Part shown: positions 13,878-63,296 of the stretch, piece after piece
How the letters are laid out: each line of letters starts with the position of its first letter
How positions within the stretch are numbered: position 1 is the first letter of the stretch
Assembly: GCA_963662155.1 (NCBI GenBank)
Contig: OY759268.1
Location: forward strand, 1,335,001 to 1,399,000
DNA length: 64,000 nucleotides
DNA from: Lamellibrachia columna
Taxonomy: Eukaryota; Annelida; Polychaeta; Sabellida; Siboglinidae
Direction: 5' to 3'
Made by a program: the position numbers and the translations under genes
The notes under the pieces: generated by a model
Databases searched by the model: none
What the model was told of the DNA's origin: nothing
The model's input: only the letters and a program-made list of their open reading frames with translations

Positions 13878-14027
13878 TCATAGTTCTGTTGGGAATGATT
13901 CCATTGGTTTCCCATAGATGTCTCTGCCTGTCTTCTGTCGCGCATTTTTGCTGCCACTGCTTAGTTGATCAGTAGGCCAACCTGTGGCGCTGCGTCCCAC
14001 AGACGAGGCATTTCCTCCACCAGAAGT
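13878..14027 (-). CDS. M1AP: M1AP, terminal coding exon
   Basis: Acceptor CTTTTGTTTTTGCAG directly precedes 14027. The exon opens in phase 0, encodes 49 Ser/Gly/Lys-rich residues (TSGGGNASS near the start, SGSKNARQKTGRD in the middle) and ends with TGA at 13878-13880. Low complexity and basic character fit the poorly conserved M1AP C-terminus. Assignment rests on the strong acceptor, phase agreement with the exon at 15559 and the resulting total length, not on residue identity. Confidence 0.65.
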   Translation of the reverse strand, partial: TSGGGNASSVGRSATGWPTDQLSSGSKNARQKTGRDIYGKPMESFPTEL

Positions 14028-15558: not shown

Positions 15559-15678
15559 CTGGGGCTTCCTCTTTCCCGCGATGGTCAATGGGCGACCTTT
15601 TGTTGACAGCTGAGTGACCAGACTCTCGCACAGACCAGACGAAAACAACAGAGGGTTGTAGCTCGACTCAACCGCCAC
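15559..15678 (-). CDS. M1AP: M1AP, penultimate exon
   Basis: Acceptor TTGGGTTCTCTGTAG precedes 15678 and donor CAG/GTCAGT follows at 15558. The exon has exactly 40 codons, phase 0 at both ends. It encodes VAVESSYNPLL then LFSSGLCESLVTQLSTK. The E-x-x-YNPL block corresponds to the LEPTYNPL region of vertebrate M1AP as I recall it. The frame stays open past the donor to a TAA near 15480, so readthrough to an alternative C-terminus is possible. The phase match with the terminal exon favours splicing. Confidence 0.75.
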
Positions 15679-17075: not shown

Positions 17076-17318
17076 CTGTGAGAGACACGCATCCATGACA
17101 GAGATAGTTTCCTCAGTCGGTTCGTCGGCCGAGCTGAAGTGCCGCGGCAGTATGATCTCATTGACAGCGACAGCCTTGAGCAGGAGGTGACAGGGCTGGT
17201 GGGAAGGAAGGAGGAGGAAGTGTCCACAGGGCTTGGGAGTGGGAACATTGTACACAAAGCGGGACTTGGAGACAGTCTCGGAGGGCGTAGTCTCCAGGCA
17301 GGCCAGCAACACTTCATT
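17076..17318 (-). CDS. M1AP: M1AP, conserved C-terminal-half exon
   Basis: Acceptor TTAGTGTTTGTGTGCAG precedes 17318; donor CAG/GTCAGT follows at 17075. It has exactly 81 codons, phase 0 at both ends. The sequence runs NEVLLACLETTP, then a centre FLLLPSHQPCHLLLKAVAVNE, then ISVMDACLS. LLLKAVAxxE and the preceding hydrophobic run match the LLVKAVATRE region of vertebrate M1AP in order and spacing. M1AP is a vertebrate germ-cell protein needed for progress through male meiosis I; in family knowledge it acts with the ZMM-type crossover proteins. No catalytic motif is visible. Confidence 0.88.
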
Positions 17319-18168: not shown

Positions 18169-18373
18169 CCAAGAACAAAGCCGACATAGAAAGCAAACAT
18201 TAATATATCACACATTTTCGGACTCATCATCAGTGCCTCCAAAACTGTAGTCAGGAGAACAAACTGAGACACGGCCTTGCAGACGTGGATCATTTAACCT
18301 ACCTTGGCAGTGTAATGTCTGAAGATGGAAACTGTTTTATTGACGTCAATAATAAGCAAGCACCACTGTGACA
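18169..18373 (+). mobile_element. LINE reverse-transcriptase fragment
   Basis: The frame at about 18270-18350 reads LADVDHLTYLGSVMSEDGN, then DVNNK, the VDxFxYLGSxxSxDG block found after the RT catalytic core in many LINEs of the RTE/I groups. It is short and broken at both ends. Confidence 0.55.
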
Positions 18374-18830
18374 GTAACTGAAGTCATACCTCATGTCATA
18401 GGAGCTGTACCAGGGCCTGGAAGTAACTGAAGGCATACCTTGTGTCGTAGGAGCTGTACCAGGGCCTGGAAGTAACTGAAGGCATACCATGTGTCGTAGG
18501 AGCTGTACCAGGGCCTGGAAGTAACTGAAGGCATACCTTGTGTCGTAGAAGCTGTACCAGGGCCTGGAATTAACTGAAGGCATACCTTGTGTCGTAGGAG
18601 CTGCACCAGGGCCTGGAAGTAACTGAAGGCATACCTTGTGTCGTAGAAGCTGTACCAGGGCCTGGAAGTAACTGAAGGCATACCTTGTGTCGTAGGAGCT
18701 GTACCAGGGCCTGGAAGTAACTGAAGGCATACCTTGTGTCGTAGAAGCTGTACCAGGGCCTGGAAGTAACTGAAGGCATACCTTGTGTCGTAGGAGCTGT
18801 ACCAGGGCCTGGAAGTAACTGAAGGCATAC
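18374..18830 (-). repeat. minisatellite E, 49-bp unit built from an M1AP exon end and its donor
   Basis: About 9-10 tandem copies continuing from the true exon end at 18831. On the sense strand each unit is CAGGCCCTGGTACAGCTCC, then TACGACACAAG, then the donor GTATGCC, then TTCAGTTACTTC. That is the last 30 coding bases of the exon plus the 5' splice site and about a dozen intronic bases. The units are 49 bp, so three units equal 49 codons, and the frame through the first five or so units has no stop. A variant near 18568 introduces TAA. Confidence 0.93.
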
Positions 18831-18932
18831 CTTGTGTCGTAGGAGCTTTACCAGGGCCTGGAAGTCATGTCTGTTTGTCTCCAGCTCGTCCCAGTCCGTT
18901 TTCCAACAACTTGTGGCGTCAACCAACAGGGG
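18831..18932 (-). CDS. M1AP: M1AP, exon with the TSCW / DWDELETN block
   Basis: Acceptor CTGCTGTCTCCAG precedes 18932 and donor AAG/GTATGC follows at 18830. It has exactly 34 codons, phase 0 at both ends. It encodes PLLVDATSCW then DWDELETNRHDFQALV. The run DWDELETN followed by F-x-AL, preceded by TSCW, is the strongest match to vertebrate M1AP in the window. The 3' end and donor of this exon are tandemly repeated downstream (minisatellite E). Confidence 0.9.
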
Positions 18933-19282: not shown

Positions 19283-19429
19283 CATGCCATACAGAACTGA
19301 TTCACAGATGGCAGCACTGGGCAGACGTCTAATGACACGCAATGAATGCACGGGAACAGTGGTGCCCCCTGTCACTCCGCAAACAGCCATCTTGGAAGAT
19401 GGTGGCGGAGTGGGACGAACATTTGCCAC
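19283..19429 (-). CDS. M1AP: M1AP, exon preceding the TSCW exon
   Basis: Acceptor CACTTTGGACTCACAG precedes 19429; donor ATG/GTGGGT follows at 19282. It has 49 codons, phase 0 at both ends. The exon starts VANVRPTPPPSSK, a variable Pro/Ser stretch, then HSLRVIRRLPSAAICESVLYGM. HxLRVIxxLxSxxxCESxxYG aligns with the HYKLQVIKALKSSGLCESLTYG region of vertebrate M1AP and joins directly to PLLVDATSCW of the next exon, as expected. Confidence 0.87.
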
Positions 19430-19659
19430 CTGTGAGTCCAAAGTGAGGCTCTGAAAGTGGGAGTGACGTCATTCTGGTCAGGCTTCAATTAAATGTTCCT
19501 CCTCAATTCTATTTTTTTATTAAAATTTTATTATTTAATTATTATTTAATTTTTGATTCTATTGTTCGCTCATCTGATTTAAAAACCATTCCGCAAAAAA
19601 ATCAAACCTGTCTCGTATCGACAGCGACATGCTGACTTGCTTGTATAACTTCGGTTGAC
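19430..19659. other. M1AP intron, AT-rich, nothing seen
   Basis: Polypyrimidine-containing lead-in to the exon acceptor and an AT-rich stretch at 19500-19560. No other feature. Confidence 0.5.
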
Positions 19660-24910: not shown

Positions 24911-24982
24911 TTACAGCAGGTTACACATTTACCCCATGTGGGATATTTTACTTCCCCTGGCAGACACCAGGTAGAAGGGACC

Positions 24983-27900
24983 AACGTTCTACCACACAGC
25001 CACAACCTGTCCCCTCTACCAGCAGTCCAATGTTCTACAACACAGCCACAACCTGTCCCCTCTACCAGCAGTCCAATGTTCTACAACACAGCCACAACCT
25101 GTCCCCTCTACCAGCAGTCCAATGTTCTACCACACAGCCACAACCTGTCCCCTCTACCAGCAGTCCAATGTTCTACCACACAGCCACAACCTGTCCCCTC
25201 TACCAGCAGTCCAATGTTCTACCACACAGCCACAACCTGTCCCCTCTACAAGCAGTCCAATGTTCTACCACACAGCCACAACCTGTCCCCTCTACCAGCA
25301 GTCCAATGTTCTACCACACAGCCACAACCTGTCCCCTCTACCAGCAGTCCAATGTTCTACCACACAGCCACAACCTGTCCCCTCTACCAGCAGCCCAATG
25401 TTCTACAACACAGCCACAACCTGTCCCCTCTACCAGCAGTCCAATGTTCTACCACACAGCCACAACTTGTCCCCTCTACCAGCAGTCCAATGTTCTACCA
25501 CACAGCCACAACCTGTCCCCTCTACCAGCAGTCCAATGTTCTACAACACAGCCACAACCTGTCCCCTCTACCAGCAGTCCAATGTTCTACCACACAGCCA
25601 CAATCTGTCCCCTCTACCAGCAGTCCAATGTTCTACCACACAGCCACCACCTGTCCCCTCGACCAGCAGTCCAATGTTCTACCACACAGCCACATGTCCC
25701 CTCTACCAGCAGTCCAATGTTCTACCACACAGCCACAACCTGTCCCCTCTACGAGCAGTCCAATGTTCTACCACACAGCCACAACATGTCCCCTGTACCA
25801 GCAGTCCAATGTTCTACCACACAGCCACAACCTGTCCCCTCTACCAGCAGTCCAATGTTCTACCACACAGCCACATTATGTCCCCTCTACCAGCAGTCCA
25901 ATGTTCTACCACACAGCCACATTATGTCCCCTCGACCAGCAGCCCAATGTTCTACCACACAGCCACAACCTGTCCCCTCGACCAGCAGTCCAATGTTCTA
26001 CCACACAGCCACATTATGTCCCCTCGACCAGCAGTCCAATGTTCTACCACACAGCCACAACCTGTCCCCTCGACCAGCAGTCCAATGTTCTACCACACAG
26101 CCACATTATGTCCCCTCTACCAGCAGTCCAATGTTCTACCACACAGCCACAACCTGTCCCCTCTACAAACAGTCCAATGTTCTACCACACAGCCACAACC
26201 TGTCCCCTCGACCAGCAGTCCAATGTTCTACCACACAGCCACAACTTGTCCCCTCGACCAGCAGTCCAATGTTCTACAACACAGCCACAACCTGTCCCCT
26301 CGACCAGCAGTCCAATGTTCTACCACACAACCACAACCTGTCCCCTCTACCAGCAGTCCAATGTTCTACCACACAGCCACAACCTGTCCCCTCGACCAGC
26401 AGTCCAATGTTCTACCACACAGCCACCACCTGTCCCCTCGACCAGCAGTCCAATGTTCTACCACACAGCCACAACATGTCCCCTCTACCAGCAGTCCAAT
26501 GTTCTACCACACAGCCACAACCTGTCCCCTCTACGAGCAGTCCAATGTTCTACCACACAGCCACAACATGTCCCCTCGACCAGCAGCCCAATGTTCTACC
26601 ACACAGCCACAACCTGTCCCCTCGACCAGCAGTCCAATGTTCTACCACACAGCCACAACATGTCCCCTCGACCAGCAGCCCAATGTTCTACCACACAGCC
26701 ACAACCTGTCCCCTCGACCAGCAGTCCAATGTTCTACCACACAGCCACAACCTGTCCCCTCTACCAGCAGTCCAATGTTCTACCACACAGCCACAACCTG
26801 TCCCCTCTACCAACAGTCCAATGTTCTACCACACAGCCACAACCTGTCCCCTCGACCAGCAGTCCAATGTTCTACCACACAGCCACAACCTGTCCCCTCT
26901 ACCAGCAGCCCAATTTTCTACCACACAGCCACAACCTGTCCCCTCTACCAGCAGCCCAATGTTCTACCACACAGCCACAACCTGTCCCCTCGACCAGCAG
27001 CCCAATGTTCTACCACACAGCCACAACCTGTCCCCTCGACCAGCAGTCCAATGTTCTACCACACAGCCACAACCTGTCCCCTCTACCAGCAGTCCAATGT
27101 TCTACCACACAGCCACAACCTGTCCCCTCTACCAGCAGTCCAATGTTGTACCACACAGCCACAACCTGTCCCCTCTACCAGCAGTCCAATGTTCTACCAC
27201 ACAACCACAACCTGTCCCCTCTACCAGCAGTCCAATGTTCTACCACACAGCCACAACCTGTCCCCTCTACCAGCAATCCAATGTTCTACAACACAACCAC
27301 AACCTGTCCCCTCTACCAGCAGCCCAATGTTCTACCACACAACCACAACCTGTCCCCTCTACCAGCAGTCCAATGTTCTACCACACAGCCACAACCTGTC
27401 CCCTCTACCAGCAGTCCAATGTTCTACCACACAACCACAACCTGTCCCCTCTACCAGCAGTCCAATGTTCTACCACACAGCCACAACCTGTCCCCTCTAC
27501 CAGCAATCCAATGTTCTACCACACAGCCACAACCTGTCCCCTCTACCAGCAGCCCAATGTTCTACCACACAGCCACAACCTGTCCCCTCTACCAGCAGTC
27601 CAATGTTCTACCACACAGCCACAACCTGTCCCCTCTACCAGCAGTCCAATGTTCTACCACACAGCCACAACCTGTCCCCTCTACCAGCAGTCCAATGTTC
27701 TACCACACAGCCACAACCTGTCCCCTCTACCAGTAGTCCAATGTTCTACCACACAGCAACAACCTGTCCCCTCTACCAGCAGTCCAATGTTCTACAACAC
27801 AGCCACAACCTGTCCCCTCTACCAGCAGTCCAATGTTCTACCACACAGCCACAACCTGTCCTCTCTACAAGCAGTCCAATGTTCTACCACACAGCCACAA

Positions 27901-30900
27901 CCTGTCCCCTCGACCAGCAATCCAATGTTCTACAACACAACCACAACCTGTCCCCTCGACCAGCAGTCCAATGTTCTACCACACAACCACAACCTGTCCC
28001 CTCTACCAGCAGTCCAATGTTCTACCACACAGCCACAACCTGTCCCCTCTACCAGCAGTCCAATGTTCTACCACACAGCCACAACCTGTCCCCTCTACCA
28101 GCAGTCCAATGTTCTACCACACAGCCACAACCTGTCCCCTCGACCAGCAGTCCAATGTTCTACCACACAGCCACAACCTGCCCCCTCGACCAGCAATCCA
28201 ATGTTCTACCACACAGCCACAACCTGTCCCCTCTACCAGCAGTCCAATGTTCTACCACACAGCCACAACCTGTCCCCTCTACCAGCAGTCCAATGTTCCA
28301 CCACACAACCACAACCTGTCCCCTCTACCAGCAATCCAATGTTCTACAACACAGCCACAACCTGTCCCCTCTACCAGCAGTCCAATGTTCTACTGCACAG
28401 CCACAACCTGTCCCCTCGACCAGCAGTCCAATGTTCTACCACACAGCCACAACCTGTCCCCTCTACCAGCAGCCCAATGTTCTACCACACAGCCACAACC
28501 TGTCCCCTCGACCAGCAGTCCAATGTTCTACCACACAGCCACGACCTGTCCCCTCTACCAGCAATCCAATGTTCTACAACACAACCACAACCTGTCCCCT
28601 CTACCAGCAGTCCAATGTTCTACTGCACAGCCACAACCTGTCCCCTCGACCAGGAGTCCAATGTTCTACCAAACAGCCACGACCTGTCCCCTCTACCAGC
28701 AATCCAATGTTCTACAACACAGCCACAACCTGTCCCCTCTACCAGCAGTCCAATGTTCTACTGCACAGCCACAACCTGTCCCCTCGACCAGCAGTCCAAT
28801 GTTCTACCACACAGCCACAACCTGTCCCCTCTACCAGCAGCCCAATGTTCTACCACACAGCCACAACCTGTCCCCTCGACCAGCAGTCCAATGTTCTACC
28901 ACACAGCCACGACCTGTCCCCTCTACCAGCAATCCAATGTTCTACAACACAACCACAACCTGTCCCCTCTACCAGCAGTCCAATGTTCTACCACACAGCC
29001 ACAACCTGTCCCCTCTACCAGCAGTCCAATGTTCCACGACACAACCACAACCTGTCCCCTCTACCAGCAATCCAATGTTCTGCAACACAACCACAACCTG
29101 TCCCCTCTACCAGCAGTCCAATGTTCTACAACACAGCCACAACCTGTCCCCTCTACCAGCAGTCCAATGTTCTACCACACAGCCACAACCTGTCCCCTCT
29201 ACCAACAGTCCAATGTTCTACCACACAGCCACAATCTGTCCCCTCGACCAGCAGTCCAATGTTCTACCACACAGCCACCACCTGTCCCCTCTACCAGCAG
29301 TCCAATGTTCCACCACACAGCCACAACCTGTCCCCTCTACCAGCAGTCCAATGTTCTACTGCACAGCCACAACCTGTCCCCTCTACCAGCAGCCCAATGT
29401 TCTACCACACAGCCACCACCTGTCCCCTCTACCAGCAGTCCAATGTTCTACCACACAGCCACAACCTGTCCCCTCTACCAGCAGTCCAATGTTCTACCAC
29501 ACAGCCACAACCTGTCCCCTCTACCAGCAGCCAAATGTTCTGCCACACAGCCACAACCTGTCCCCTCGACCAGCAGTCCAATGTTCTACTGCACAGCCAC
29601 AACCTGTCCCCTCTACCAGCAGCCCAATGTTCTACCACACAGCCACCACCTGTCCCCTCTACCAGCAGCCCAATGTTCTGCCACACAGCCACAACCTGTC
29701 CCCTCTACCAGCAGTCCAATGTTCTACTGCACAGTCACAACCTGTCCCCTCTACCAGCAGTCCAATGTTCTACCACACAGCCACCACCTGTCCCCTCTAC
29801 CAGCAGTCCAATGTTCTACCACACAGCCACAACCTGTCCCCTCTACCAGCAGTCCAATGTTCTACCACACAGCCACAACCTGTCCCCTCTACCAGCAGCC
29901 CAATGTTCTGCCACACAGCCACAACCTGTCCCCTCGACCAGCAGTCCAATGTTCTACTGCACAGCCACAACCTGTCCCCTCTACCAGCAGCCCAATGTTC
30001 TACGACATAGCCACAACCTGTCCCCTCTACCAGCAGTCCAATGTTCTACTGCACAGCCACAACCTGTCCCCTCTACCAGCAGCCCAATGTTCTACCACAC
30101 AGCCACAACCTGTCCCCTCTACAAGCAGTCCAATGTTCTACCACACAGCCACAACTTGTCCCCTCTACCAGCAATCCAATGTTCTACCACACAGCTACAA
30201 CCTGTCCCCTCTACCAGCAGTCCAATGTTCTATCTCACAGCCACAACCTGTCCCCTCTACCAGCAGTCCAATGTTCTACCACACAGCCACAACCTGTCCC
30301 CTCTACCAGCAATCCAATGTTCTACCACACAGCCACAACCTGTCCCCTCTACCAGCAGTCCAATGTTCTACCACACAACCACAACCTGTGCCCTCTACCA
30401 GCAGTCCAATGTTCTACCACACAGCCACAACCTGTCCCCTCTACCAGCAGTCCAATGTTCTACAACACAGCCACAACCTGTCCCCTCTACCAGCAGTCCA
30501 ATGTTCTACCACACAGCCACAACCTGTCCTCTCTACAAGCAGTCCAATGTTCTACCACACAGCCACAACCTGTCCCCTCGACCAGCAATCCAATGTTCTA
30601 CAACACAACCACAACCTGTCCCCTCGACCAGCAGTCCAATGTTCTACCACACAACCACAACCTGTCCCCTCTACCAGCAGTCCAATGTTCTACCACACAG
30701 CCACAACCTGTCCCCTCTACCAGCAGTCCAATGTTCTACCACACAGCCACAACCTGTCCCCTCTACCAGCAGTCCAATGTTCTACCACACAGCCACAACC
30801 TGTCCCCTCGACCAGCAGTCCAATGTTCTACCACACAGCCACAACCTGCCCCCTCGACCAGCAATCCAATGTTCTACCACACAGCCACAACCTGTCCCCT

Positions 30901-33900
30901 CTACCAGCAGTCCAATGTTCTACCACACAGCCACAACCTGTCCCCTCTACCAGCAGTCCAATGTTCCACCACACAACCACAACCTGTCCCCTCTACCAGC
31001 AATCCAATGTTCTACAACACAGCCACAACCTGTCCCCTCTACCAGCAGTCCAATGTTCTACTGCACAGCCACAACCTGTCCCCTCGACCAGCAGTCCAAT
31101 GTTCTACCACACAGCCACAACCTGTCCCCTCTACCAGCAGCCCAATGTTCTACCACACAGCCACAACCTGTCCCCTCGACCAGCAGTCCAATGTTCTACC
31201 ACACAGCCACGACCTGTCCCCTCTACCAGCAATCCAATGTTCTACAACACAACCACAACCTGTCCCCTCTACCAGCAGTCCAATGTTCTACTGCACAGCC
31301 ACAACCTGTCCCCTCGACCAGGAGTCCAATGTTCTACCAAACAGCCACGACCTGTCCCCTCTACCAGTAATCCAATGTTCTACAACACAGCCACAACCTG
31401 TCCCCTCTACCAGCAGTCCAATGTTCTACTGCACAGCCACAACCTGTCCCCTCGACCAGCAGTCCAATGTTCTACCACACAGCCACAACCTGTCCCCTCT
31501 ACCAGCAGCCCAATGTTCTACCACACAGCCACAACCTGTCCCCTCGACCAGCAGTCCAATGTTCTACCACACAGCCACGACCTGTCCCCTCTACCAGCAA
31601 TCCAATGTTCTACAACACAACCACAACCTGTCCCCTCTAACAGCAGTCCAATGTTCTACCACACAGCCACAACCTGTCCCCTCTACCAGCAGTCCAATGT
31701 TCCACGACACAACCACAACCTGTCCCCTCTACCAGCAATCCAATGTTCTGCAACACAACCACAACCTGTCCCCTCTACCAGCAGTCCAATGTTCTACAAC
31801 ACAGCCACAACCTGTCCCCTCTACCAGCAGTCCAATGTTCTACCACACAGCCACAACCTGTCCCCTCTACCAACAGTCCAATGTTCTACCACACAGCCAC
31901 AACCTGTCCCCTCGACCAGCAGTCCAATGTTCTACCACACAGCCACCACCTGTCCCCTCTACCAGCAGTCCAATGTTCCACCACACAGCCACAACCTGTC
32001 CCCTCTACCAGCAGTCCAATGTTCTACTGCACAGCCACAACCTGTCCCCTCTACCAGCAGCCCAATGTTCTACCACACAGCCACCACCTGTCCCCTCTAC
32101 CAGCAGTCCAATGTTCTACCACACAGCCACAACCTGTCCCCTCTACCAGCAGTCCAATGTTCTACCACACAGCCACAACCTGTCCCCTCTACCAGCAGCC
32201 CAATGTTCTGCCACACAGCCACAACCTGTCCCCTCGACCAGCAGTCCAATGTTCTACTGCACAGCCACAACCTGTCCCCTCTACCAGCAGCCCAATGTTC
32301 TACGACATAGCCACAACCTGTCCCCTCTACCAGCAGTCCAATGTTCTACTGCACAGCCACAACCTGTCCCCTCTACCAGCAGCCCAATGTTCTACCACAC
32401 AGCCACAACCTGTCCCCTCTACAAGCAGTCCAATGTTCTACCACACAGCCACAACTTGTCCCCTCTACCAGCAATCCAATGTTCTACCACACAGCTACAA
32501 CCTGTCCCCTCTACCAGCAGTCCAATGTTCTATCTCACAGCCACAACCTGTCCCCTCTACCAGCAGTCCAATGTTCTACCACACAGCCACAACCTGTCCC
32601 CTCTACCAGCAATCCAATGTTCTACCACACAGCCACAACCTGTCCCCTCTACCAGCAGTCCAATGTTCTACCACACAACCACAACCTGTGCCCTCTACCA
32701 GCAGTCCAATGTTCTACCACACAGCCACAACCTGTCCCCTCTACCAGCAGTCCAATGTTCTACTGCACAGCCACAACCTGTCCCCTCTACCAGCAGCCCA
32801 ATGTTCTACGACATAGCCACAACCTGTCCCCTCTACCAGCAGTCCAATGTTCTACTGCACAGCCACAACCTGTCCCCTCTACCAGCAGCCCAATGTTCTA
32901 CCACACAACCACAACCTGTCCCCTCTACCAGCAGTCCAATGTTCTACTGCACAGCCACAACCTGTCCCCTCTACCAGCAGCCCAATGTTCTACAACACAG
33001 CCACAACCTGTCCCCTCTACCAGCAGCCCAATGTTCCACCACACAGCCACAACCTGTCCCCTCTACCAGCAGTCCAATGTTCTACTGCACAGCCACAACC
33101 TGTCCCCTCTACCAGCAGCCCAATGTTCTACAACACAGCCACAACCTGTCCCCTCTACCAGCAGCCCAATGTTCTACAACACAGCCACAACCTGTCCCCT
33201 CTACAAGCAGTCCAATGTTCTACCACACAGCCACAACCTGTCCCCTCTACCAGCAGTCCAATGTTCTACTGCACAGCCACAACCTGTCCCCTCTACCAGC
33301 AGTCCAATGTTCTACCACACAGCCACAACCTGTCCCCTCTACCAGCAGTCCAATGTTCTACCACACAGCCACAACCTGTCCCCTCTACCAGCAGCCCAAT
33401 GTTCTACCACACAGCCACAACCTGTCCCCTCTACCAGCAGTCCAATGTTCTACCACACAGCCACAACCTGTCCCCTCTACCAGCAGTCCAATGTTCTACC
33501 ACACAGCCACAACCTGTCCCCTCTACCAGCAGTCCAATGTTCTACCACACAGCCACAACCTGTCCCCTCTACCAGTAGTCCAATGTTCTACCACACAGCA
33601 ACAACCTGTCCCCTCTACCAGCAGTCCAATGTTCTACAACACAGCCACAACCTGTCCCCTCTACCAGCAGTCCAATGTTCTACCACACAGCCACAACCTG
33701 TCCTCTCTACAAGCAGTCCAATGTTCTACCACACAGCCACAACCTGTCCCCTCGACCAGCAATCCAATGTTCTACAACACAACCACAACCTGTCCCCTCG
33801 ACCAGCAGTCCAATGTTCTACCACACAACCACAACCTGTCCCCTCTACCAGCAGTCCAATGTTCTACCACACAGCCACAACCTGTCCCCTCTACCAGCAG

Positions 33901-36900
33901 TCCAATGTTCTACCACACAGCCACAACCTGTCCCCTCTACCAGCAGTCCAATGTTCTACCACACAGCCACAACCTGTCCCCTCGACCAGCAGTCCAATGT
34001 TCTACCACACAGCCACAACCTGCCCCCTCGACCAGCAATCCAATGTTCTACCACACAGCCACAACCTGTCCCCTCTACCAGCAGTCCAATGTTCTACCAC
34101 ACAGCCACAACCTGTCCCCTCTACCAGCAGTCCAATGTTCCACCACACAACCACAACCTGTCCCCTCTACCAGCAATCCAATGTTCTACAACACAGCCAC
34201 AACCTGTCCCCTCTACCAGCAGTCCAATGTTCTACTGCACAGCCACAACCTGTCCCCTCGACCAGCAGTCCAATGTTCTACCACACAGCCACAACCTGTC
34301 CCCTCTACCAGCAGCCCAATGTTCTACCACACAGCCACAACCTGTCCCCTCGACCAGCAGTCCAATGTTCTACCACACAGCCACGACCTGTCCCCTCTAC
34401 CAGCAATCCAATGTTCTACAACACAACCACAACCTGTCCCCTCTACCAGCAGTCCAATGTTCTACTGCACAGCCACAACCTGTCCCCTCGACCAGGAGTC
34501 CAATGTTCTACCAAACAGCCACGACCTGTCCCCTCTACCAGCAATCCAATGTTCTACAACACAGCCACAACCTGTCCCCTCTACCAGCAGTCCAATGTTC
34601 TACTGCACAGCCACAACCTGTCCCCTCGACCAGCAGTCCAATGTTCTACCACACAGCCACAACCTGTCCCCTCTACCAGCAGCCCAATGTTCTACCACAC
34701 AGCCACAACCTGTCCCCTCGACCAGCAGTCCAATGTTCTACCACACAGCCACGACCTGTCCCCTCTACCAGCAATCCAATGTTCTACAACACAACCACAA
34801 CCTGTCCCCTCTACCAGCAGTCCAATGTTCTACCACACAGCCACAACCTGTCCCCTCTACCAGCAGTCCAATGTTCCACGACACAACCACAACCTGTCCC
34901 CTCTACCAGCAATCCAATGTTCTGCAACACAACCACAACCTGTCCCCTCTACCAGCAGTCCAATGTTCTACAACACAGCCACAACCTGTCCCCTCTACCA
35001 GCAGTCCAATGTTCTACCACACAGCCACAACCTGTCCCCTCTACCAACAGTCCAATGTTCTACCACACAGCCACAATCTGTCCCCTCGACCAGCAGTCCA
35101 ATGTTCTACCACACAGCCACCACCTGTCCCCTCTACCAGCAGTCCAATGTTCCACCACACAGCCACAACCTGTCCCCTCTACCAGCAGTCCAATGTTCTA
35201 CTGCACAGCCACAACCTGTCCCCTCTACCAGCAGCCCAATGTTCTACCACACAGCCACCACCTGTCCCCTCTACCAGCAGTCCAATGTTCTACCACACAG
35301 CCACAACCTGTCCCCTCTACCAGCAGTCCAATGTTCTACCACACAGCCACAACCTGTCCCCTCTACCAGCAGCCAAATGTTCTGCCACACAGCCACAACC
35401 TGTCCCCTCGACCAGCAGTCCAATGTTCTACTGCACAGCCACAACCTGTCCCCTCTACCAGCAGCCCAATGTTCTACCACACAGCCACCACCTGTCCCCT
35501 CTACCAGCAGCCCAATGTTCTGCCACACAGCCACAACCTGTCCCCTCTACCAGCAGTCCAATGTTCTACTGCACAGTCACAACCTGTCCCCTCTACCAGC
35601 AGTCCAATGTTCTACCACACAGCCACCACCTGTCCCCTCTACCAGCAGTCCAATGTTCTACCACACAGCCACAACCTGTCCCCTCTACCAGCAGTCCAAT
35701 GTTCTACCACACAGCCACAACCTGTCCCCTCTACCAGCAGCCCAATGTTCTGCCACACAGCCACAACCTGTCCCCTCGACCAGCAGTCCAATGTTCTACT
35801 GCACAGCCACAACCTGTCCCCTCTACCAGCAGCCCAATGTTCTACGACATAGCCACAACCTGTCCCCTCTACCAGCAGTCCAATGTTCTACTGCACAGCC
35901 ACAACCTGTCCCCTCTACCAGCAGCCCAATGTTCTACCACACAGCCACAACCTGTCCCCTCTACAAGCAGTCCAATGTTCTACCACACAGCCACAACTTG
36001 TCCCCTCTACCAGCAATCCAATGTTCTACCACACAGCTACAACCTGTCCCCTCTACCAGCAGTCCAATGTTCTATCTCACAGCCACAACCTGTCCCCTCT
36101 ACCAGCAGTCCAATGTTCTACCACACAGCCACAACCTGTCCCCTCTACCAGCAATCCAATGTTCTACCACACAGCCACAACCTGTCCCCTCTACCAGCAG
36201 TCCAATGTTCTACCACACAACCACAACCTGTGCCCTCTACCAGCAGTCCAATGTTCTACCACACAGCCACAACCTGTCCCCTCTACCAGCAGTCCAATGT
36301 TCTACAACACAGCCACAACCTGTCCCCTCTACCAGCAGTCCAATGTTCTACCACACAGCCACAACCTGTCCTCTCTACAAGCAGTCCAATGTTCTACCAC
36401 ACAGCCACAACCTGTCCCCTCGACCAGCAATCCAATGTTCTACAACACAACCACAACCTGTCCCCTCGACCAGCAGTCCAATGTTCTACCACACAACCAC
36501 AACCTGTCCCCTCTACCAGCAGTCCAATGTTCTACCACACAGCCACAACCTGTCCCCTCTACCAGCAGTCCAATGTTCTACCACACAGCCACAACCTGTC
36601 CCCTCTACCAGCAGTCCAATGTTCTACCACACAGCCACAACCTGTCCCCTCGACCAGCAGTCCAATGTTCTACCACACAGCCACAACCTGCCCCCTCGAC
36701 CAGCAATCCAATGTTCTACCACACAGCCACAACCTGTCCCCTCTACCAGCAGTCCAATGTTCTACCACACAGCCACAACCTGTCCCCTCTACCAGCAGTC
36801 CAATGTTCCACCACACAACCACAACCTGTCCCCTCTACCAGCAATCCAATGTTCTACAACACAGCCACAACCTGTCCCCTCTACCAGCAGTCCAATGTTC

Positions 36901-39900
36901 TACTGCACAGCCACAACCTGTCCCCTCGACCAGCAGTCCAATGTTCTACCACACAGCCACAACCTGTCCCCTCTACCAGCAGCCCAATGTTCTACCACAC
37001 AGCCACAACCTGTCCCCTCGACCAGCAGTCCAATGTTCTACCACACAGCCACGACCTGTCCCCTCTACCAGCAATCCAATGTTCTACAACACAACCACAA
37101 CCTGTCCCCTCTACCAGCAGTCCAATGTTCTACTGCACAGCCACAACCTGTCCCCTCGACCAGGAGTCCAATGTTCTACCAAACAGCCACGACCTGTCCC
37201 CTCTACCAGTAATCCAATGTTCTACAACACAGCCACAACCTGTCCCCTCTACCAGCAGTCCAATGTTCTACTGCACAGCCACAACCTGTCCCCTCGACCA
37301 GCAGTCCAATGTTCTACCACACAGCCACAACCTGTCCCCTCTACCAGCAGCCCAATGTTCTACCACACAGCCACAACCTGTCCCCTCGACCAGCAGTCCA
37401 ATGTTCTACCACACAGCCACGACCTGTCCCCTCTACCAGCAATCCAATGTTCTACAACACAACCACAACCTGTCCCCTCTAACAGCAGTCCAATGTTCTA
37501 CCACACAGCCACAACCTGTCCCCTCTACCAGCAGTCCAATGTTCCACGACACAACCACAACCTGTCCCCTCTACCAGCAATCCAATGTTCTGCAACACAA
37601 CCACAACCTGTCCCCTCTACCAGCAGTCCAATGTTCTACAACACAGCCACAACCTGTCCCCTCTACCAGCAGTCCAATGTTCTACCACACAGCCACAACC
37701 TGTCCCCTCTACCAACAGTCCAATGTTCTACCACACAGCCACAACCTGTCCCCTCGACCAGCAGTCCAATGTTCTACCACACAGCCACCACCTGTCCCCT
37801 CTACCAGCAGTCCAATGTTCCACCACACAGCCACAACCTGTCCCCTCTACCAGCAGTCCAATGTTCTACTGCACAGCCACAACCTGTCCCCTCTACCAGC
37901 AGCCCAATGTTCTACCACACAGCCACCACCTGTCCCCTCTACCAGCAGTCCAATGTTCTACCACACAGCCACAACCTGTCCCCTCTACCAGCAGTCCAAT
38001 GTTCTACCACACAGCCACAACCTGTCCCCTCTACCAGCAGCCCAATGTTCTGCCACACAGCCACAACCTGTCCCCTCGACCAGCAGTCCAATGTTCTACT
38101 GCACAGCCACAACCTGTCCCCTCTACCAGCAGCCCAATGTTCTACGACATAGCCACAACCTGTCCCCTCTACCAGCAGTCCAATGTTCTACTGCACAGCC
38201 ACAACCTGTCCCCTCTACCAGCAGCCCAATGTTCTACCACACAGCCACAACCTGTCCCCTCTACAAGCAGTCCAATGTTCTACCACACAGCCACAACTTG
38301 TCCCCTCTACCAGCAATCCAATGTTCTACCACACAGCTACAACCTGTCCCCTCTACCAGCAGTCCAATGTTCTATCTCACAGCCACAACCTGTCCCCTCT
38401 ACCAGCAGTCCAATGTTCTACCACACAGCCACAACCTGTCCCCTCTACCAGCAATCCAATGTTCTACCACACAGCCACAACCTGTCCCCTCTACCAGCAG
38501 TCCAATGTTCTACCACACAACCACAACCTGTGCCCTCTACCAGCAGTCCAATGTTCTACCACACAGCCACAACCTGTCCCCTCTACCAGCAGTCCAATGT
38601 TCTACTGCACAGCCACAACCTGTCCCCTCTACCAGCAGCCCAATGTTCTACGACATAGCCACAACCTGTCCCCTCTACCAGCAGTCCAATGTTCTACTGC
38701 ACAGCCACAACCTGTCCCCTCTACCAGCAGCCCAATGTTCTACCACACAACCACAACCTGTCCCCTCTACCAGCAGTCCAATGTTCTACTGCACAGCCAC
38801 AACCTGTCCCCTCTACCAGCAGCCCAATGTTCTACAACACAGCCACAACCTGTCCCCTCTACCAGCAGCCCAATGTTCCACCACACAGCCACAACCTGTC
38901 CCCTCTACCAGCAGTCCAATGTTCTACTGCACAGCCACAACCTGTCCCCTCTACCAGCAGCCCAATGTTCTACAACACAGCCACAACCTGTCCCCTCTAC
39001 CAGCAGCCCAATGTTCTACAACACAGCCACAACCTGTCCCCTCTACAAGCAGTCCAATGTTCTACCACACAGCCACAACCTGTCCCCTCTACCAGCAGTC
39101 CAATGTTCTACTGCACAGCCACAACCTGTCCCCTCTACCAGCAGTCCAATGTTCTACCACACAGCCACAACCTGTCCCCTCTACCAGCAGTCCAATGTTC
39201 TACCACACAGCCACAACCTGTCCCCTCTACCAGCAGTCCAATGTTCCACCACACAGCCACAACCTGTCCCCTCGACCAGCAGTCCAATGTTCTACTGCAC
39301 AGCCACAACCTGTCCCCTCTACCAGCAGCCCAATGTTCTACGACATAGCCACAACCTGTCCCCTCTACCAGCAGTCCAATGTTCTACTGCACAGCCACAA
39401 CCTGTCCCCTCTACCAGCAGCCCAATGTTCTACCACACAGCCACAACCTGTCCCCTCTACAAGCAGTCCAATGTTCTACCACACAGCCACAACTTGTCCC
39501 CTCTACCAGCAATCCAATGTTCTACCACACAGCTACAACCTGTCCCCTCTACCAGCAGTCCAATGTTCTATCTCACAGCCACAACCTGTCCCCTCTACCA
39601 GCAGTCCAATGTTCTACCACACAGCCACAACCTGTCCCCTCTACCAGCAGTCCAATGTTCTACCACACAGCCACAACCTGTCCCCTCTACCAGCAGTCCA
39701 ATGTTCTACTGCACAGCCACAACCTGTCCCCTCTACCAGCAGTCCAATGTTCTACCACACAGCCACAACCTGTCCCCTCTACCAGCAGTCCAATGTTCTA
39801 CCACACAACCACAACCTGTGCCCTCTACCAGCAGTCCAATGTTCTACCACACAGCCACAACCTGTCCCCTCTACCAGCAGTCCAATGTTCTACCACACAG

Positions 39901-40456
39901 CCACAACCTGTCCCCTCTACCAGCAGTCCAATGTTCTACCACACAGCCACAACCTGTCCCCTCTACCAGCAATCCAATGTTCTACCACACAGCCACAACC
40001 TGTCCCCTCTACCAGCAGTCCAATGTTCTACTGCACAGCCACAACCTGTCCCCTCTACCAGCAGTCCAATGTTCTACCACACAGCCACAACCTGTCCCCT
40101 CTACCAGCAGTCCAATGTTCTACCACACAACCACAACCTATCCCCTCTACCAGCAGACCAATGTTCTACCACACAACCACAACCTGTCCCCTCTACCAGC
40201 AGTCCAATGTTCTACAACACAACCACAACCTGTCCCCTCTACCAGCAGTCCAATGTTCTACCACACAGCCACAACCTGTCCCCTCTACCAGCAGTCCAAT
40301 GTTCTACTGCACAACCACAACCTGTCCCCTCTACCAGCAGTCCAATGTTCTACTGCACAACCACAACCTGTCCCCTCTACCAGCAGTCCAATGTTCTACC
40401 ACACAACCACAACCTGTCCCCTCTACCAGCAGTCCAATGTTCTACTGCACAGCCAT
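24983..40456 (+). repeat. minisatellite H, 46-bp unit, about 336 copies
   Basis: The unit reads CCAATGTTCTACCACACAGC, CACAACCTGTCCCCTCTACC, AGCAGT. Common variants are TCGACC for TCTACC, ACAACACA for ACCACACA, ACTGCACA, and AGCCC for AGTCC. The unit contains no stop in any plus frame and 46 is 1 modulo 3, so all three plus frames are open for kilobases with a 46-residue period. This explains apparent proteins of up to 2703 residues, which I do not annotate. Embedded duplications at 2300 bp (50 units) and 5842 bp (127 units) are visible from shared rare variants. It lies in the M1AP intron, in antisense to these frames. Confidence 0.97.
27510..39210 (+). repeat. tandem duplication of a 5842-bp block inside minisatellite H
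   Basis: Rare variants recur exactly 5842 bp apart: CAGTAGTCC at 27731 and 33573, ACGACATAG near 30003 and 35845, and frame starts at 30041/35883, 31743/37585 and 32341/38183. 5842 is 127 x 46. Homology breaks near 27510 on the left (CAATCC against CAGTCC) and near 39200 on the right, so two copies lie head to tail. Confidence 0.9.
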
Positions 40457-41669: not shown

Positions 41670-41743
41670 AAATTGACTGAGGAAGGGAAGCTGGGCGGGA
41701 TTCAAGAGTCTCTCGTGAATGTCGCACTGCAACACTCGCAGTC
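41670..41743 (-). CDS. M1AP: M1AP, short exon with CDIHERLL
   Basis: Acceptor GCTGTGTTGTTTTAG precedes 41743; donor TTT/GTGAGT follows at 41669. The exon begins with two bases (GA) that complete a Gly codon with the phase-1 G of the upstream exon, then 24 codons: LRVLQCDIHERLLNPAQL, then PFLSQF. LxCDxxERLL matches the LKCDLQERLLCPSLL segment of vertebrate M1AP. It is too short for simple ORF detection and was found by following the family order. Confidence 0.87.
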
Positions 41744-42118: not shown

Positions 42119-42217
42119 CATCATTCTGAGAGTCTGGAAGGATTAGATGCAAATGTTCTTTGTCAGTGCCAACGTCATGCAACCAGCTAGTGAAGACACC
42201 CTGTAGACTGTTCAGGT
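42119..42217 (-). CDS. M1AP: M1AP, exon with SWLHDVGTD, whose 5' edge is repeated
   Basis: Acceptor CACTGTGTTGTAG precedes 42217 and donor ATG/GTAAGT follows at 42118. It begins with AC, completing an Asp codon with the phase-1 G of the upstream exon, and ends in phase 1. It encodes (D)LNSLQGVFTSWLHDVGTD, then KEHLHLILPDSQ. DxxSxxxxFxxWLHxxGTDxExxHLxL matches vertebrate M1AP. The first 22 or so coding bases and the acceptor are the unit of minisatellite J, so the frame is open upstream into the array, reading GVHCVVDLTSLQ per unit. Confidence 0.88.
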
Positions 42218-45200
42218 CTACAACACAGTGGACACCCTGCAGACTGTTCAGGTCTACAACACAGTGGACACCCTGTAGACTGGTCAGGTCTACAACACAG
42301 TGGACACCATGTAGACTGGTCAGGTCTACAACACAGTGGACACCCTGTAGACAGGTCAGGTCTACAACACAGTGGACACCCTGTAGACTGGTCAGGTCTA
42401 CAACACATTGGACACCCTGTAGACTGGTCAGGTCTACAACACAGTGGACACCCTGTAGACTGGTCAGATCTACAACACAGTGGACAACCTGTAGACTGGT
42501 CAGGTCTACAACACAGTGGACACGTGTAGACTGGTCAGGTCTACAACACAGTGGACACAATGTAGACTGGTCAGGTCTACAACACAGTGGACACACTGTA
42601 GACTGGTCAGGTCTACAACACAGTGGACACCATGTAGACTGGTCAGGTCTACAACCAAGTGGACACCGTGTAGACTGGTCAGGTCTACAACACAGTGGAC
42701 ACCCTGTAGACTGGTCAGGTCTACAACACAGTGGACACCCTGTAGACTGGTCAGGTCTACAACACAGTGGACACCCTGTAGACTGGTCAGGTCTACAACA
42801 CAGTGGACACCCTGTAGACTGGTCAGGTCTACAACACAGTGGACACCCTGTAGACTGGTCAGGTCTACAACACAGTGGACACCATGTAGACTGGTCAGGT
42901 CTACCACACAGTGGACACCCTGTAGACTGGTCAGGTCTACAACACAGTGGACACCATGTAGACTGGTCAGGTCTACAACACAGTGGACACCATGTAGACT
43001 GGTCAGGTCTACAACACAGTGGACACCCTGTAGACTGGTCAGGTCTACAACACAGTGGACACCCTGTAGACTGGTCAGGTCTACAACACAGTGGACACCC
43101 TGTAGACTGGTCAGGTCTACAACACAGTGGACACCCTGTAGACTGGTCAGGTCTACAACACAGTGGACACCCTGTAGACTGGTCAGGTCTACAACACAGT
43201 GGACACCCTGTAGACTGGTCAGGTCTACAACACAGTGGACACCATGTAGACTGGTCAGGTCTATAACACAGTGGACACCCTGTAGACTGGTCAGGTCTAC
43301 AACACAGTGGACACCATGTAGACTGGTCAGGTCTACAACACAGTGGACACCCTGTAGACTGGTCAGGTCTACAACACAGTGGACACCCTGTAGACTGGTC
43401 AGGTCTACAACACAGTGGACACCCTGTAGACTGGTCAGGTCTACAACACAGTGGACACCCTGTAGACTGGTCAGGTCTACAACACAGTGGACACCCTGTA
43501 GACTGGTCAGGTCTACAACACAGTGGACACCATGTAGACTGGTCCGGTCTACAACACAGTGGACACCCTGTAGACTGGTCAGGTCTACAACACAGTGGAC
43601 ACCGTGTAGACTGGTCAGGTCTACAACACAGTGGACACCATGTAGACTGGTCAGGTCTACAACACAGTGGACACCATGTAGACTGGTCAGGTCTACAACA
43701 CAGTGGACACCCTGTAGACTGGTCAGGTCTACAACACAGTGTAGACTGGTCAGGTCTACAACACAGTGGACACAATGTAGACTGGTCAGGTCTACAACAC
43801 AGTGGACACCGTGTAGACTGGTCAGGTCTACAACACAGTGGACACCGTGTAGACTGGTCAGGTCTACAACACAGTGGACACCGTGCAGACTGGTCAGGTC
43901 TACAACACAGTGGACACCCTGTAGACTGGTCAGGTCTACAACACAGTGGACACCGTGTAGACTGGTCAGGTCTACAACACAGTGGACACCATGTAGACTG
44001 GTCAGGTCTACAACACAGTGGACACCCTGTAGACTGGTCAGGTCTACAACACAGTGGACACCCTGTAGACTGGTCAGGTCTACAACACAGTGGACACCGT
44101 GTAGACTGGTCAGGTCTACAACACAGTGGACACCATGTAGACTGGTCAGGTCTACAACACAGTGGACACCGTGTAGACTGGTCAGGTCTACAACACAGTG
44201 GACACCGTGTAGACTGGTCAGGTCTACAACACAGTGGACACCATGTAGACTGGTCAGGTCTACAACACATTGGACACCATGTAGACTGGTCAGGTCTACA
44301 ACACAGTGGACACGTGTAGACTGGTCAGGTCTACAACACAGTGGACACCATGCAGACTGGTCAGGTCTACAACACATTGGACACCATGTAGACTGGTCAG
44401 GTCTACAACACAGTGGACACCATGTAGACTGGTCAGGTCTACAACACAGTGGACACCATGTAGACTGGTCAGGTCTACAACACAGTGGACACCCTGTAGA
44501 CTGGTCAGGTCTACAACACAGTGGACACCCTGTAGACTGGTCAGGTCTACAACACAGTGGACACCCTGTAGACTGGTCAGGTCTACAACACAGTGGACAC
44601 CGTGTAGACTGGTCAGGTCTACAACACAGTGGACACCCTGTAGACTGGTCAGGTCTACAACACAGTGGACACCATGTAGACTGGTCAGGTCTACAACACA
44701 GTGGACACGTGTAGACTGGTCAGGTCTACAACACAGTGGACACCCTGTAGACTGGTCAGGTCTACAACACAGTGGACACCATGTAGAATGGTCAGGTCTA
44801 CAACACAGTGGACACCCTGTAGACTGGTCAGGTCTACAACACAGTGGACATGTGTAGACTGGTCAGGTCTACCACACAGTGGACACCATGTAGACTGGTC
44901 AGGTCTACAACACAGTGGACACCGTGTAGACTGGTCAGGTCTACAACACAGTGGACACGTGTAGACTGGTCAGGTCTACAACACAGTGGACACCCTGTAG
45001 ACTGGTCAGGTCTACAACACAGTGGACACCCTGTAGACTGGTCAGGTCTACAACACAGTGGACACCATGTAGACTGGTCAGGTCTACAACACAGTGGACA
45101 CGTGTAGACTGGTCAGGTCTACAACACAGTGGACACCCTGTAGACTGGTCAGGTCTACAACACAGTGGACACTCTGTAGACTGCTCAGGTCTACAACACA

Positions 45201-46595
45201 GTGGACACCATGTAGACTGGTCAGGTCTACAACACAGTGGACACGTGTAGACTGGTCAGGTCTACAACACAGTGGACACCGTGTAGACTGGTCAAGTCTA
45301 CAACACAGTGGACACCCTGTAGACTGGTCAGGTCTACAACACAGTGGACACGTGTAGACTGGTCAGGTCTACAACACAGTGGACACCCTGTAGACTGGTC
45401 AGGTCTACAACACAGTGGACACCATGTAGAATGGTCAGGCCTACAACACAATGGACACCCTGTAGACTGGTCAGGTCTACAACACAGTGGACACGTGTAG
45501 ACTGGTCAGGTCTACCACACAGTGGACACCATGTAGACTGGTCAGGTCTACAACACAGTGGACACCGTGTAGACTGGTCAGGTCTACAACACAGTGGACA
45601 CGTGTAGACTGGTCAGGTCTACAACACAGTGGACACCCTGTAGACTGGTCAGGTCTACAACACAGTGGACACCCTGTAGACTGGTCAGGTCTACAACACA
45701 GTGGACACCATGTAGACTGGTCAGGTCTACAACACAGTGGACACGTGTAGACTGGTCAGGTCTACAACACAGTGGACACCCTGTAGACTGGTCAGGTCTA
45801 CAACACAGTGGACACCCTGTAGACTGGTCAGGTCTACAACACAGTGGACACCATGTAGACTGGTCAGGTCTACAACACAGTGGACACGTGTAGACTGGTC
45901 AGGTCTACAACACAGTGGACACCGTGTAGACTGGTCAGGTCTACAACACAGTGGACACCCTGTAGACTGGTCAGGTCTACAACACAGTGGACACCATGTA
46001 GACTGGTCAGGTCTACAACACAGTGGACACGTGTAGACTGGTCAGGTCTACAACACAGTGGACACCCTGTAGACTGGTCAGGTCTACAACACAGTGGACA
46101 CCATGTAGACTGGTCAGGTCTACAACACAGTGGACACCCTGTAGACTGGTCAGGTCTACAACACAGTGGACACGTGTAGACTGGTCAGGTCTACCACACA
46201 GTGGACACCATGTAGACTGGTCAGATCTACAACACAGTGGACACCGTGTAGACTGGTCAGGTCTACAACACAGTGGACACGTGTAGACTGGTCAGGTCTA
46301 CAACACAGTGGACACCCTGTAGACTGGTCAGGTCTACAACACAGTGGACACCCTGTAGACTGGTCAGGTCTACAACACAGTGGACACCATGTAGACTGGT
46401 CAGGTCTACAACACAGTGGACACGTGTAGACTGGTCAGGTCTACAACACAGTGGACACCCTGTAGACTGGTCAGGTCTACAACACAGTGGACACCCTGTA
46501 GACTGGTCAGGTCTACAACACAGTGGACACCATGTAGACTGGTCAGGTCTACAACACAGTGGACACGTGTAGACTGGTCAGGTCTACAACACAGA
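42207..46595 (-). repeat. minisatellite J, 36/35-bp unit built from an M1AP splice acceptor and exon start
   Basis: About 122 units. On the sense strand each reads GGTGTCCACTGTGTTGTAG, then ACCTGACCAGTCTACA. That is the 3' splice site plus the first coding bases of the exon at 42217. Near the exon, nine units in a row are 36 bp (12 codons) and in frame. A 35-bp variant (GACACGTGTAG on plus) first appears at about 42521. Between 44.7 and 46.6 kb it recurs every 107 or 143 bp, a higher-order repeat of three or four units. Long open frames on both strands are by-products. Confidence 0.95.
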
Positions 46596-53657: not shown

Positions 53658-53820
53658 CATTGTCCACCGTGAGCAGGTCAACTAGGCCACCCAGCTCACT
53701 CTTACGTGACTGGTCAGATGAACTGCTGCCCTGGCTGCTACTGGACCTCATGAGGTCATCATGGGTCAAGGTTGGGGCGTACAGCAGGGAGGGGGACGAC
53801 ACGCAAATGATCTGTACTTT
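53658..53820 (-). CDS. M1AP: M1AP, Ser-rich middle exon
   Basis: Acceptor GTTGTGTCTTTCAG precedes 53820; donor ATG/GTCAGT follows at 53657. It has 54 codons plus one base. It encodes KVQIICVSSPSLLYAP, a Ser-rich linker (SSSSQGSSSSDQS), then ELGGLVDLLTVDN. The ending (DLxTxDN then D from the split codon) matches the DLQTIDND region of vertebrate M1AP and joins in phase to the exon at 42217 over an 11.4-kb intron. Confidence 0.82.
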
Positions 53821-54890: not shown

Positions 54891-55004
54891 CTGCAGTGAG
54901 TCCAGGTCAAGGTCATGTGTTGCTCTCTCCACCTGCTTGGCAACAGTCGTTATGTTTCGGCCCGTAACCATGGAGATCTCCAACTGGTTCCAACATCCCG
55001 CAGC
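54891..55004 (-). CDS. M1AP: M1AP, exon with LEISMVTGR
   Basis: Acceptor TTTATGTTTCTTCAG precedes 55004; donor CAG/GTTAGG follows at 54890. It has 38 codons, phase 0 at both ends: AAGCWNQLEISMVTGRN, then VAKQVERATHDLDLDSLQ. SLEIxxxTxxxxxxVxKQxExxxxDxDL is the matching order in vertebrate M1AP. Confidence 0.85.
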
Positions 55005-56812: not shown

Positions 56813-57025
56813 CTGTAGTGTACACTGGGCGTGCTTTCTAAACATGGACAGGGCTTTGTGTATACACTCAGTCACACCACCGCTCCCTGCCATCCCAGAA
56901 TGCACCAATCCACTACTTCCTGCCATCCCAGAATGCACTTGTTGGTTGTGAACAACCGAGAGTTCCTGGAGAGCGGCGTATAGACGGGGGTAGTTACCCC
57001 GGACATGTTGCAGGGGAAACAACAC
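56813..57025 (-). CDS. M1AP: M1AP, second conserved exon, with an internal coding duplication
   Basis: Acceptor TTTCTACCCCCACAG precedes 57025; donor CAG/GTAGGC follows at 56812. It has 71 codons, phase 0. VLFPLQHVRGNYPRLYAALQ matches the ILPFVQVKGNFARLQTCISEL region of vertebrate M1AP. In the middle, VHSGMAGSSGL is followed at once by VHSGMAGSGG, a direct 33-bp duplication in the coding sequence that keeps frame. The end, HKALSMFRKHAQCTLQ, aligns with the EDGLQQFKQYSRH segment. Confidence 0.88.
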
Positions 57026-57441: not shown

Positions 57442-57599
57442 CTGTGGACAGTCTCCCAGGCTGATCAAGCCAAAGAACTGTATTCTCTGTGGCCCAGACA
57501 AACTACACGCTACTGCGAACAGTCGCTCCAAGGCTGCTTGCAGGCTGGCACAGGTGTCGCCATCTAGTGGCCAGCCTAAGTCCACTACAAGAATGCGAA
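57442..57599 (-). CDS. M1AP: M1AP, first conserved exon
   Basis: Acceptor ATTTTCCCGCAG precedes 57599; donor CAG/GTAAGG follows at 57441. It starts with two bases (TT) completing a codon from an upstream phase-1 exon, then 52 codons: RILVVDLGWPLDGDTCASLQ, later LERLFAVACSLSGPQRI and FFGLISLG. The pattern RxLxVxxxxPxxxDxCxxLxxALxxxFxxACSLxGPxRxxxFxL matches the N-terminal domain of vertebrate M1AP at positions about 22-70. A long pyrimidine tract (57648-57962) lies upstream of the acceptor on the sense strand. Confidence 0.9.
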
Positions 57600-63139: not shown

Positions 63140-63296
63140 TGGGGCCCGGTGGCGTAGCGGTTCTAGAACGTCGATCGGGCTCTCAATCGAGAGAATCAGG
63201 TTTCGAATCTTTGACAATGTTGTTCACCCCACATTGTCACTCAGCTGCAAATGTTGCGTAGCTGAATGCTTCCCAGAGAAGTTGAGTTGGATCTGC
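63140..63296 (+). mobile_element. tRNA-derived SINE
   Basis: Head GGGCCCGGTGGCGTAGCGG (A box TGGCGTAGCGG) then CTCTCAATCGAGAG and B box GGTTTCGAATC. The body has TTTGACAATGTTGTTCACCC and GCTGAATGCTTCCCAGAGAA, shared with the SINE at 24500-24910. The 3' part has been converted into the 36-bp array that follows. Confidence 0.8.

Follow-up and report, generated by a model that had tools for sequence, protein, structure and literature searches.

We analysed a window of 64,000 nucleotides from the genome of the deep-sea vestimentiferan tubeworm Lamellibrachia columna (contig OY759268.1, positions 1,335,001 to 1,399,000; the window is C8:1335001-1399000 in the 879.7 Mb and 30 contigs that were searched as the genome). 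Its minus strand carries the gene for meiosis 1 arrest protein (M1AP), a fertility gene in which a 36-bp minisatellite lies across the 3' splice site of exon 6 and repeats that splice site many times over (Table 1). The gene consists of 12 exons with GT-AG at all 11 introns and an intact frame of 546 amino acids, and its coding span runs from 62320 to 13878 (48.4 kb).

The protein, Pfam and alignment searches used a first model of the gene, which lacked exons 1, 11 and 12 and had a wrong 15-residue stretch where exon 7 belongs, with the exon 5-6 junction correct. Of 16 protein matches to this model, 13 bear the name meiosis 1 arrest protein (or -like), and PF28287 is present in 15. The top matches are two proteins of Lamellibrachia satsuma, followed by M1AP of Lingula, Saccoglossus, echinoderms and vertebrates; Lingula M1AP is 40% identical to the first model (E 1.9e-85, 100% of the model covered). 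The Pfam scan of the first model gave no match at E <= 1, which counts against the identification, and its first 249 residues have no relative in the PDB by sequence at E <= 1. Judged by full-length similarity to named M1AP proteins and by the complete 546-residue frame, the gene is a member of the M1AP family, as the initial annotation had proposed. The final model aligns to two L. satsuma pieces with 92% identity over 305 residues and 98% over 227. A mini-exon of the first model at 24911-24957 was dropped when the L. satsuma protein revealed the true exon 7. Exon 8 had seemed to contain a frame break, which disappeared once exon 7 had been placed.

Structure and history of the exon 6 array

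Tandem Repeats Finder (TRF) assigns the array a period of 36 bp, 122.9 copies and 95% matches, and a register search found 123 acceptor copies; the initial estimate of about 120 copies in 4.4 kb was close. AG is kept in all 123 copies: the search pattern required it, yet the count matches that of TRF. Read on the minus strand, the unit is a splice acceptor followed by the first 23 bases of exon 6, of which 22 are identical to the unit consensus, in agreement with the original description of the unit as acceptor plus exon start. The edge of exon 6 is itself the terminal copy of the array (copy 1). Of 120 gaps between copies, 102 measure 36 bp and 16 measure 35 bp; one is 27 bp long, and another spans two copies (72 bp). 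A 19-base core of the unit has 108 exact matches in the genome, all on the reverse strand and all inside this array.

The sole difference between the exon and the consensus is an A, shared by copies 1 and 2, at a base that is C in 120 of the 123 copies and G in one. The consensus C encodes T, as in the L. satsuma exon (DLTSLQ). This pattern would fit an array that was seeded from the exon, with a later change in the exon copy that was then copied or converted locally into copy 2. The residues at the edge of exon 6 align to M1AP of Lingula, Saccoglossus, echinoderms and vertebrates (for example SLQNFF in Saccoglossus); the coding edge therefore appears to be old, and the direction of copying would be from exon to array. 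Over the first 28 bases of the unit there are 0.57 differences per copy in copies 1-14, 0.11 in copies 15-58 and 0.19 in copies 59-122, and from copy 71 outward every third or fourth unit is a 35-bp copy. Most of the recent growth would therefore have taken place toward the intron and not next to the exon.

Table 1. Features of the M1AP gene and its arrays, in positions of the window
Feature	Positions	Strand	Source
M1AP exon 1, start codon	62284..62320	-	
M1AP exon 2	57442..57599	-	
M1AP exon 3	56813..57025	-	
M1AP exon 4	54891..55004	-	
M1AP exon 5	53658..53820	-	
36-bp minisatellite, 123 copies, across exon 6 3' splice site	42195..46594	-	TRF and register search
Copies 10-123, whose acceptors would give a premature stop; the first 35-bp copy is number 10	42519..46594	-	
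Copies 2-9, whose acceptors lie upstream and would insert 12-96 residues in frame	42231..42518	-	
Copy 1, intronic part CACTGTGTTGTAG, exon-proximal acceptor, probably the one used	42218..42230	-	
M1AP exon 6, 99 nt, entered in phase 1: DLNSLQGVFTSWLHDVGTDKEHLHLILPDSQND; donor GTAAGT	42119..42217	-	
M1AP exon 7 (LRVLQCDIHERLLNPAQLPFLSQF)	41670..41743	-	
46-bp array, ~336 copies, 15.5 kb, intron 7; largest in M1AP	24981..40455	.	TRF
M1AP exon 8	19283..19450	-	
M1AP exon 9; donor and last 35 nt within second boundary array	18831..18932	-	
49-bp minisatellite, 10 donor copies, across exon 9 5' splice site	18373..18865	-	
M1AP exon 10	17076..17318	-	
M1AP exon 11	15559..15678	-	
M1AP exon 12, C-terminal FPTEL then stop	13878..14027	-	

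Choice among the acceptors of exon 6

The phase-1 end of exon 5 (VDN G) is completed to a D by the acceptor nearest exon 6, which gives VDN-D-LNSLQGVFTSWLHD. This junction is gapless in all 13 aligned relatives that cover it (15 were aligned; P0002 and P0009 are without the region), and the L. satsuma model joins DN directly to DLTSLQGVF with no insertion. Use of any upstream copy would either insert at least 12 residues at the junction or break the frame. Because the proximal acceptor gives the conserved protein with a gapless fit to 13 relatives, it is probably the one used.

The local sequence of the site gives no such preference. By a weight matrix built from 68 acceptors that belong to other exons of this genome, the proximal acceptor is weak, with a score of 4.7; the median of those 68 is 9.15, which is on the high side because the set was preselected by a score cut-off. 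Scores equal to or higher than that of the proximal acceptor are found for 114 of the 122 upstream acceptors. Site sequence therefore cannot single out the proximal copy, and its choice probably rests on position.

In the amphioxus globin gene BflGb6, tandem duplications that take in the 3' end of an intron and the 5' part of the following exon have been described under the name 'mirages' (PMC3087553). The exon 6 array is of this type in that its terminal copy is the authentic exon edge, as judged from homology, and agrees with the normal protein. We consider it very probable that the array is a mirage-type splice-boundary minisatellite which grew from the exon edge as a by-product of the minisatellite load, with the proximal acceptor still in use. 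A short segment of M1AP, reaching from the end of intron 5 into the start of exon 6, would have been tandemly duplicated. Further copying toward the intron would then have raised the number to 123, with the real exon edge remaining as the terminal copy. Splicing would most likely still use the acceptor nearest exon 6 and so give the conserved protein. The proximal acceptor may be selected by exon definition, being paired across the shortest possible exon with the GTAAGT donor; pairing of this kind would predict the proximal choice. The array would most simply be a by-product of a very high genomic minisatellite load, catching splice edges about as often as arrays end in introns.

Four other explanations were considered. 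The initial annotation suggested that the N-terminal side of the exon may be a coding variable number tandem repeat (VNTR). The acceptors of copies 2-9 would then be used in part of the transcripts, and 12-96 extra residues (GVHCVVDLTSLQ repeats) would vary by allele and tissue. These eight acceptors, not the nine first counted, do add multiples of 12 residues in frame without a stop, and the high scores of most upstream acceptors are in keeping with their use. There are also precedents: one VNTR unit is retained in ABCA7 mRNA (PMC5954066), and two downstream repeat units serve as donors in IFI6 (PMC4526556, citing Turri 1995). Against it, the frame is broken from copy 10 onward, where 114 of the 122 upstream copies (copies 10-123) run into a premature stop, and no insertion occurs at the junction in the 13 aligned relatives that cover it or in the L. 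satsuma model. The coding repeat is thus unsupported, and we consider it improbable.

Slightly less probable still is that the distal copies act as functional decoys, with mis-splicing to copies 10-123 leading to transcript decay and the length of the array tuning the dose of M1AP. The premature stops just described would suit such a role, as would the case of ABCA7, in which a longer VNTR goes with lower expression and more skipping of exon 19 (PMC5954066). However, there is no sign of distal copy use here, similar arrays occur in M1AP and in other genes, and amphioxus mirages are reported or suggested to leave regular splicing undisturbed (PMC3087553, PMC3902484).

Tandem arrays are hard to assemble, and the copy number could have been inflated by assembly error; we regard this as very unlikely, given that the copies differ in an ordered way (the periodic 35-bp copies from copy 71 and the excess of differences in copies 1-14) and that the adjacent 46-bp array turns up independently in a gene model of L. 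satsuma. Finally, a repeat from elsewhere with a coincidental match to the exon, or an exon captured from the repeat, is imaginable in so minisatellite-rich a genome (tandem arrays form 62.8% of the gene span) and has a negligible chance of being right, in view of the 22 of 23 exon bases identical to the consensus, the conservation of the exon residues in M1AP of other phyla, and the confinement of all 108 exact core matches to this array.

Splice-edge arrays elsewhere in M1AP and in the genome

The exon 6 array is accompanied by a second one in the same gene. Its 49-bp unit takes in the final 35 bases of exon 9 together with the donor, and GT is kept in all nine decoys; the first donor joins LLRHK to NEVLLA, matching L. 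satsuma P0002. Both M1AP arrays thus have a unit that spans an exon boundary and carries its splice signal (AG or GT), as mirages do. By a 24-mer test, 2 of the 22 splice boundaries of M1AP are duplicated.

According to TRF, tandem arrays occupy 30.4 kb of the 48.4-kb span of M1AP, the largest of them being the 46-bp array of intron 7. L. satsuma P0001 runs straight past exon 7 into a translation of this 46-bp repeat, because of which we consider the array probably older than the split between the two species. The plus strand of this array contains very long open frames. Two smaller duplications were seen in the coding sequence: exon 3 contains an in-frame 33-bp duplication at 56877-56938 (VHSGMAGSSGL / VHSGMAGSGGV), which is common to L. 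satsuma P0001, and P0001 doubles RIQFFGLISLGDCPQ at the end of exon 2, where the window has one copy only. The doubled RIQFFGLISLGDCPQ is possibly a young boundary duplication at another M1AP splice edge.

Outside M1AP, a 7.6-kb array of 58-bp units with CAGGTGAGT, donor-like on the plus strand, lies downstream of the gene at 5660-13268; no gene owning it was noticed, and no search aimed at one was made. A further 36-bp array with open frames on both strands reaches the window edge (63292-64000). Open frames at 2707-5470, 47058-48514 and 50225-51625 look like fragments of reverse transcriptases of non-long terminal repeat (non-LTR) retrotransposons.

Other genes were surveyed through a PF00069 (kinase) search of the genome, which gave 136 exon-level matches; the 30 best were examined together with 92 others from 86 loci, here called short kinase exon hits, and 14 were left out. 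Read by eye, 10 of these 92 hits have arrays across a splice boundary, at 11 boundaries in total. Nine cross an acceptor (L039, L041, L058, L059, L071, L097, L102, L107 and L111, those of L041 and L102 being diverged) and two cross a donor (L059 and L115). Arrays near a boundary and not across it were excluded from the count (L042, L044, L051, L053, L056, L063 and L082). One kinase exon, at L059 (G000:C9:2959500-2961200), has a 105-bp unit in about six copies across its acceptor and a 35-bp unit in about nine copies across its donor. L071 may be Aurora-like and L059 may be STK36-like, labels that are not a result of the survey. For the 30 best hits, whose splice sites are unassigned, TRF found no array overlapping a hit edge, and a duplicated 24-mer lies within 30 nt of a hit edge in two.

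An automatic 24-mer test found 9 of 152 scored boundaries (87 acceptors and 65 donors) to be duplicated, and the same nine within 400 bp; it missed L041 and the L059 donor. The share of duplicated positions was 19.5% in introns (n = 1,104) and 2.7% in exons (n = 368). At an exon edge the copies lie on one side only, and intron positions at array ends, which are alike in this respect, amount to 744 of 15,303 (4.9%). With the search range matched, this control predicts 7.4 duplicated boundaries against the nine found (P = 0.32); for 11 boundaries, with the two additions by eye, P = 0.12. A first look at terminal units by TRF had given about four expected among 168 hit edges. Because the rate at boundaries is close to that at which arrays end in introns, we infer that boundary arrays are chance catches in a minisatellite-rich genome, and a targeting of splice sites by arrays was set aside as not shown.

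Decoys were scored against the real site in 12 arrays, L041 having given none with the probe used. The median decoy scores at least as high as the real site in seven of the 12, and a general rule that decoys are weaker was therefore rejected. The comparison suggests that position is the best account of the choice in M1AP, and that elsewhere the real site is sometimes also the stronger one.

Several observations weigh against a combination of chance capture and choice by position. In the other five arrays (L058, L059 acceptor, L102, L107 and L115) the median decoy falls below the real site, and site strength may enter into the choice of splice site in these genes. Acceptors taken alone are duplicated in 8 of 87 cases in the automatic test (P = 0.061), and in 9 of 87 with the addition by eye, where P = 0.026 is uncorrected and biased, the control having no reading by eye; acceptors compared with donors, additions by eye included, give P = 0.12. 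Some targeting of acceptors by arrays may thus occur. The kinase splice sites were set by a scoring script, which picked a non-terminal copy in L058, L097 and L111, and the survey covers one protein family, the 77 hits to the myosin head having been left out. For exon 6 itself, acceptor use is deduced by homology; the sequences from L. satsuma may themselves be no more than predicted proteins.

A bolder version of the account would make splice-edge minisatellites a genome-wide standing condition of this tubeworm lineage, affecting about 1 in 10 short exons. The spliceosome would choose among tens to more than 100 near-identical sites by position alone, and distal copies in some genes, M1AP among them, would be used at a low level, with variation in isoforms or dose following array length. 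We regard this version as rather doubtful.

Relation to known splice-boundary repeats and significance

Amphioxus mirages, known in Adh3 and the globins BflGb6 and BflGb9 (PMC3087553), to which TnC and PGBD5 were added (PMC3902484), resemble the M1AP arrays in being tandem repeats across 3' or 5' exon edges with a splice signal in many units (PMC3087553). The unit length of the Adh3 mirage, 10-72 bp, is similar to the 36 bp of M1AP. The two BflGb6 haplotypes have six and three units of 150-160 bp, whereas the M1AP array has 123 of 36 bp, and the host is an annelid rather than a chordate.

In humans, the VNTR of ABCA7 intron 18 repeats a 25-bp unit between about 12 and 427 times, and its first bases are the donor GT of exon 18. 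The length of this VNTR is associated with skipping of exon 19 and with lower expression, and the retained unit is found in a small share of the mRNA (PMC5954066). As in M1AP, the unit holds a splice site, the array starts at the exon edge and the copies can number in the hundreds. The ABCA7 repeat is donor-side, with measured length-dependent effects on splicing, whereas the exon 6 array is acceptor-side; the exon 9 donor array of M1AP is the closer match. The minisatellite of IFI6 (6-16) is likewise donor-side, unlike the exon 6 array. It has a short unit in about 26 copies. Multiple donors lie within it (PMC4526556, citing Turri 1995).

Among annelids, the minisatellites of an earthworm metallothionein gene lie in its first intron and, in the accessible text, are not placed on a splice edge (PMC12783039), and the portion of the Ridgeia genome paper at hand mentions tandem repeats only as an annotation step. 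Among the literature matches listed for minisatellites with splice sites and for tubeworm repeats, no splice-boundary minisatellite in an annelid was found. The initial annotation knew of no gene in which a splice acceptor is itself the minisatellite unit at such a copy number. The BflGb6 mirages (PMC3087553) and the donor-side ABCA7 array of up to ~427 copies (PMC5954066) speak against that statement; what stands is that we found no earlier account of an acceptor-side array with 123 copies, of one in an annelid, or of a single annelid genome with such arrays in several genes. The M1AP array is a member of the known mirage kind, and apparently new are its host phylum, its number of acceptor copies and the occurrence of such arrays in several genes.

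Splice-edge arrays cause wrong gene models: L. satsuma M1AP is split into two neighbouring models, one of which runs into an array. Duplicated splice edges have been proposed as a route to new introns (PMC3087553), and boundary minisatellites are seemingly not confined to amphioxus or to rare human loci. M1AP is a natural gene with 123 acceptors of nearly equal local sequence, which differ mainly in position. Artificial minigenes are the usual means of studying how a 3' splice site is chosen from among near-identical ones nearby. The smaller versions on both sides of exons in several genes of the same genome provide natural tests of splice-site choice.

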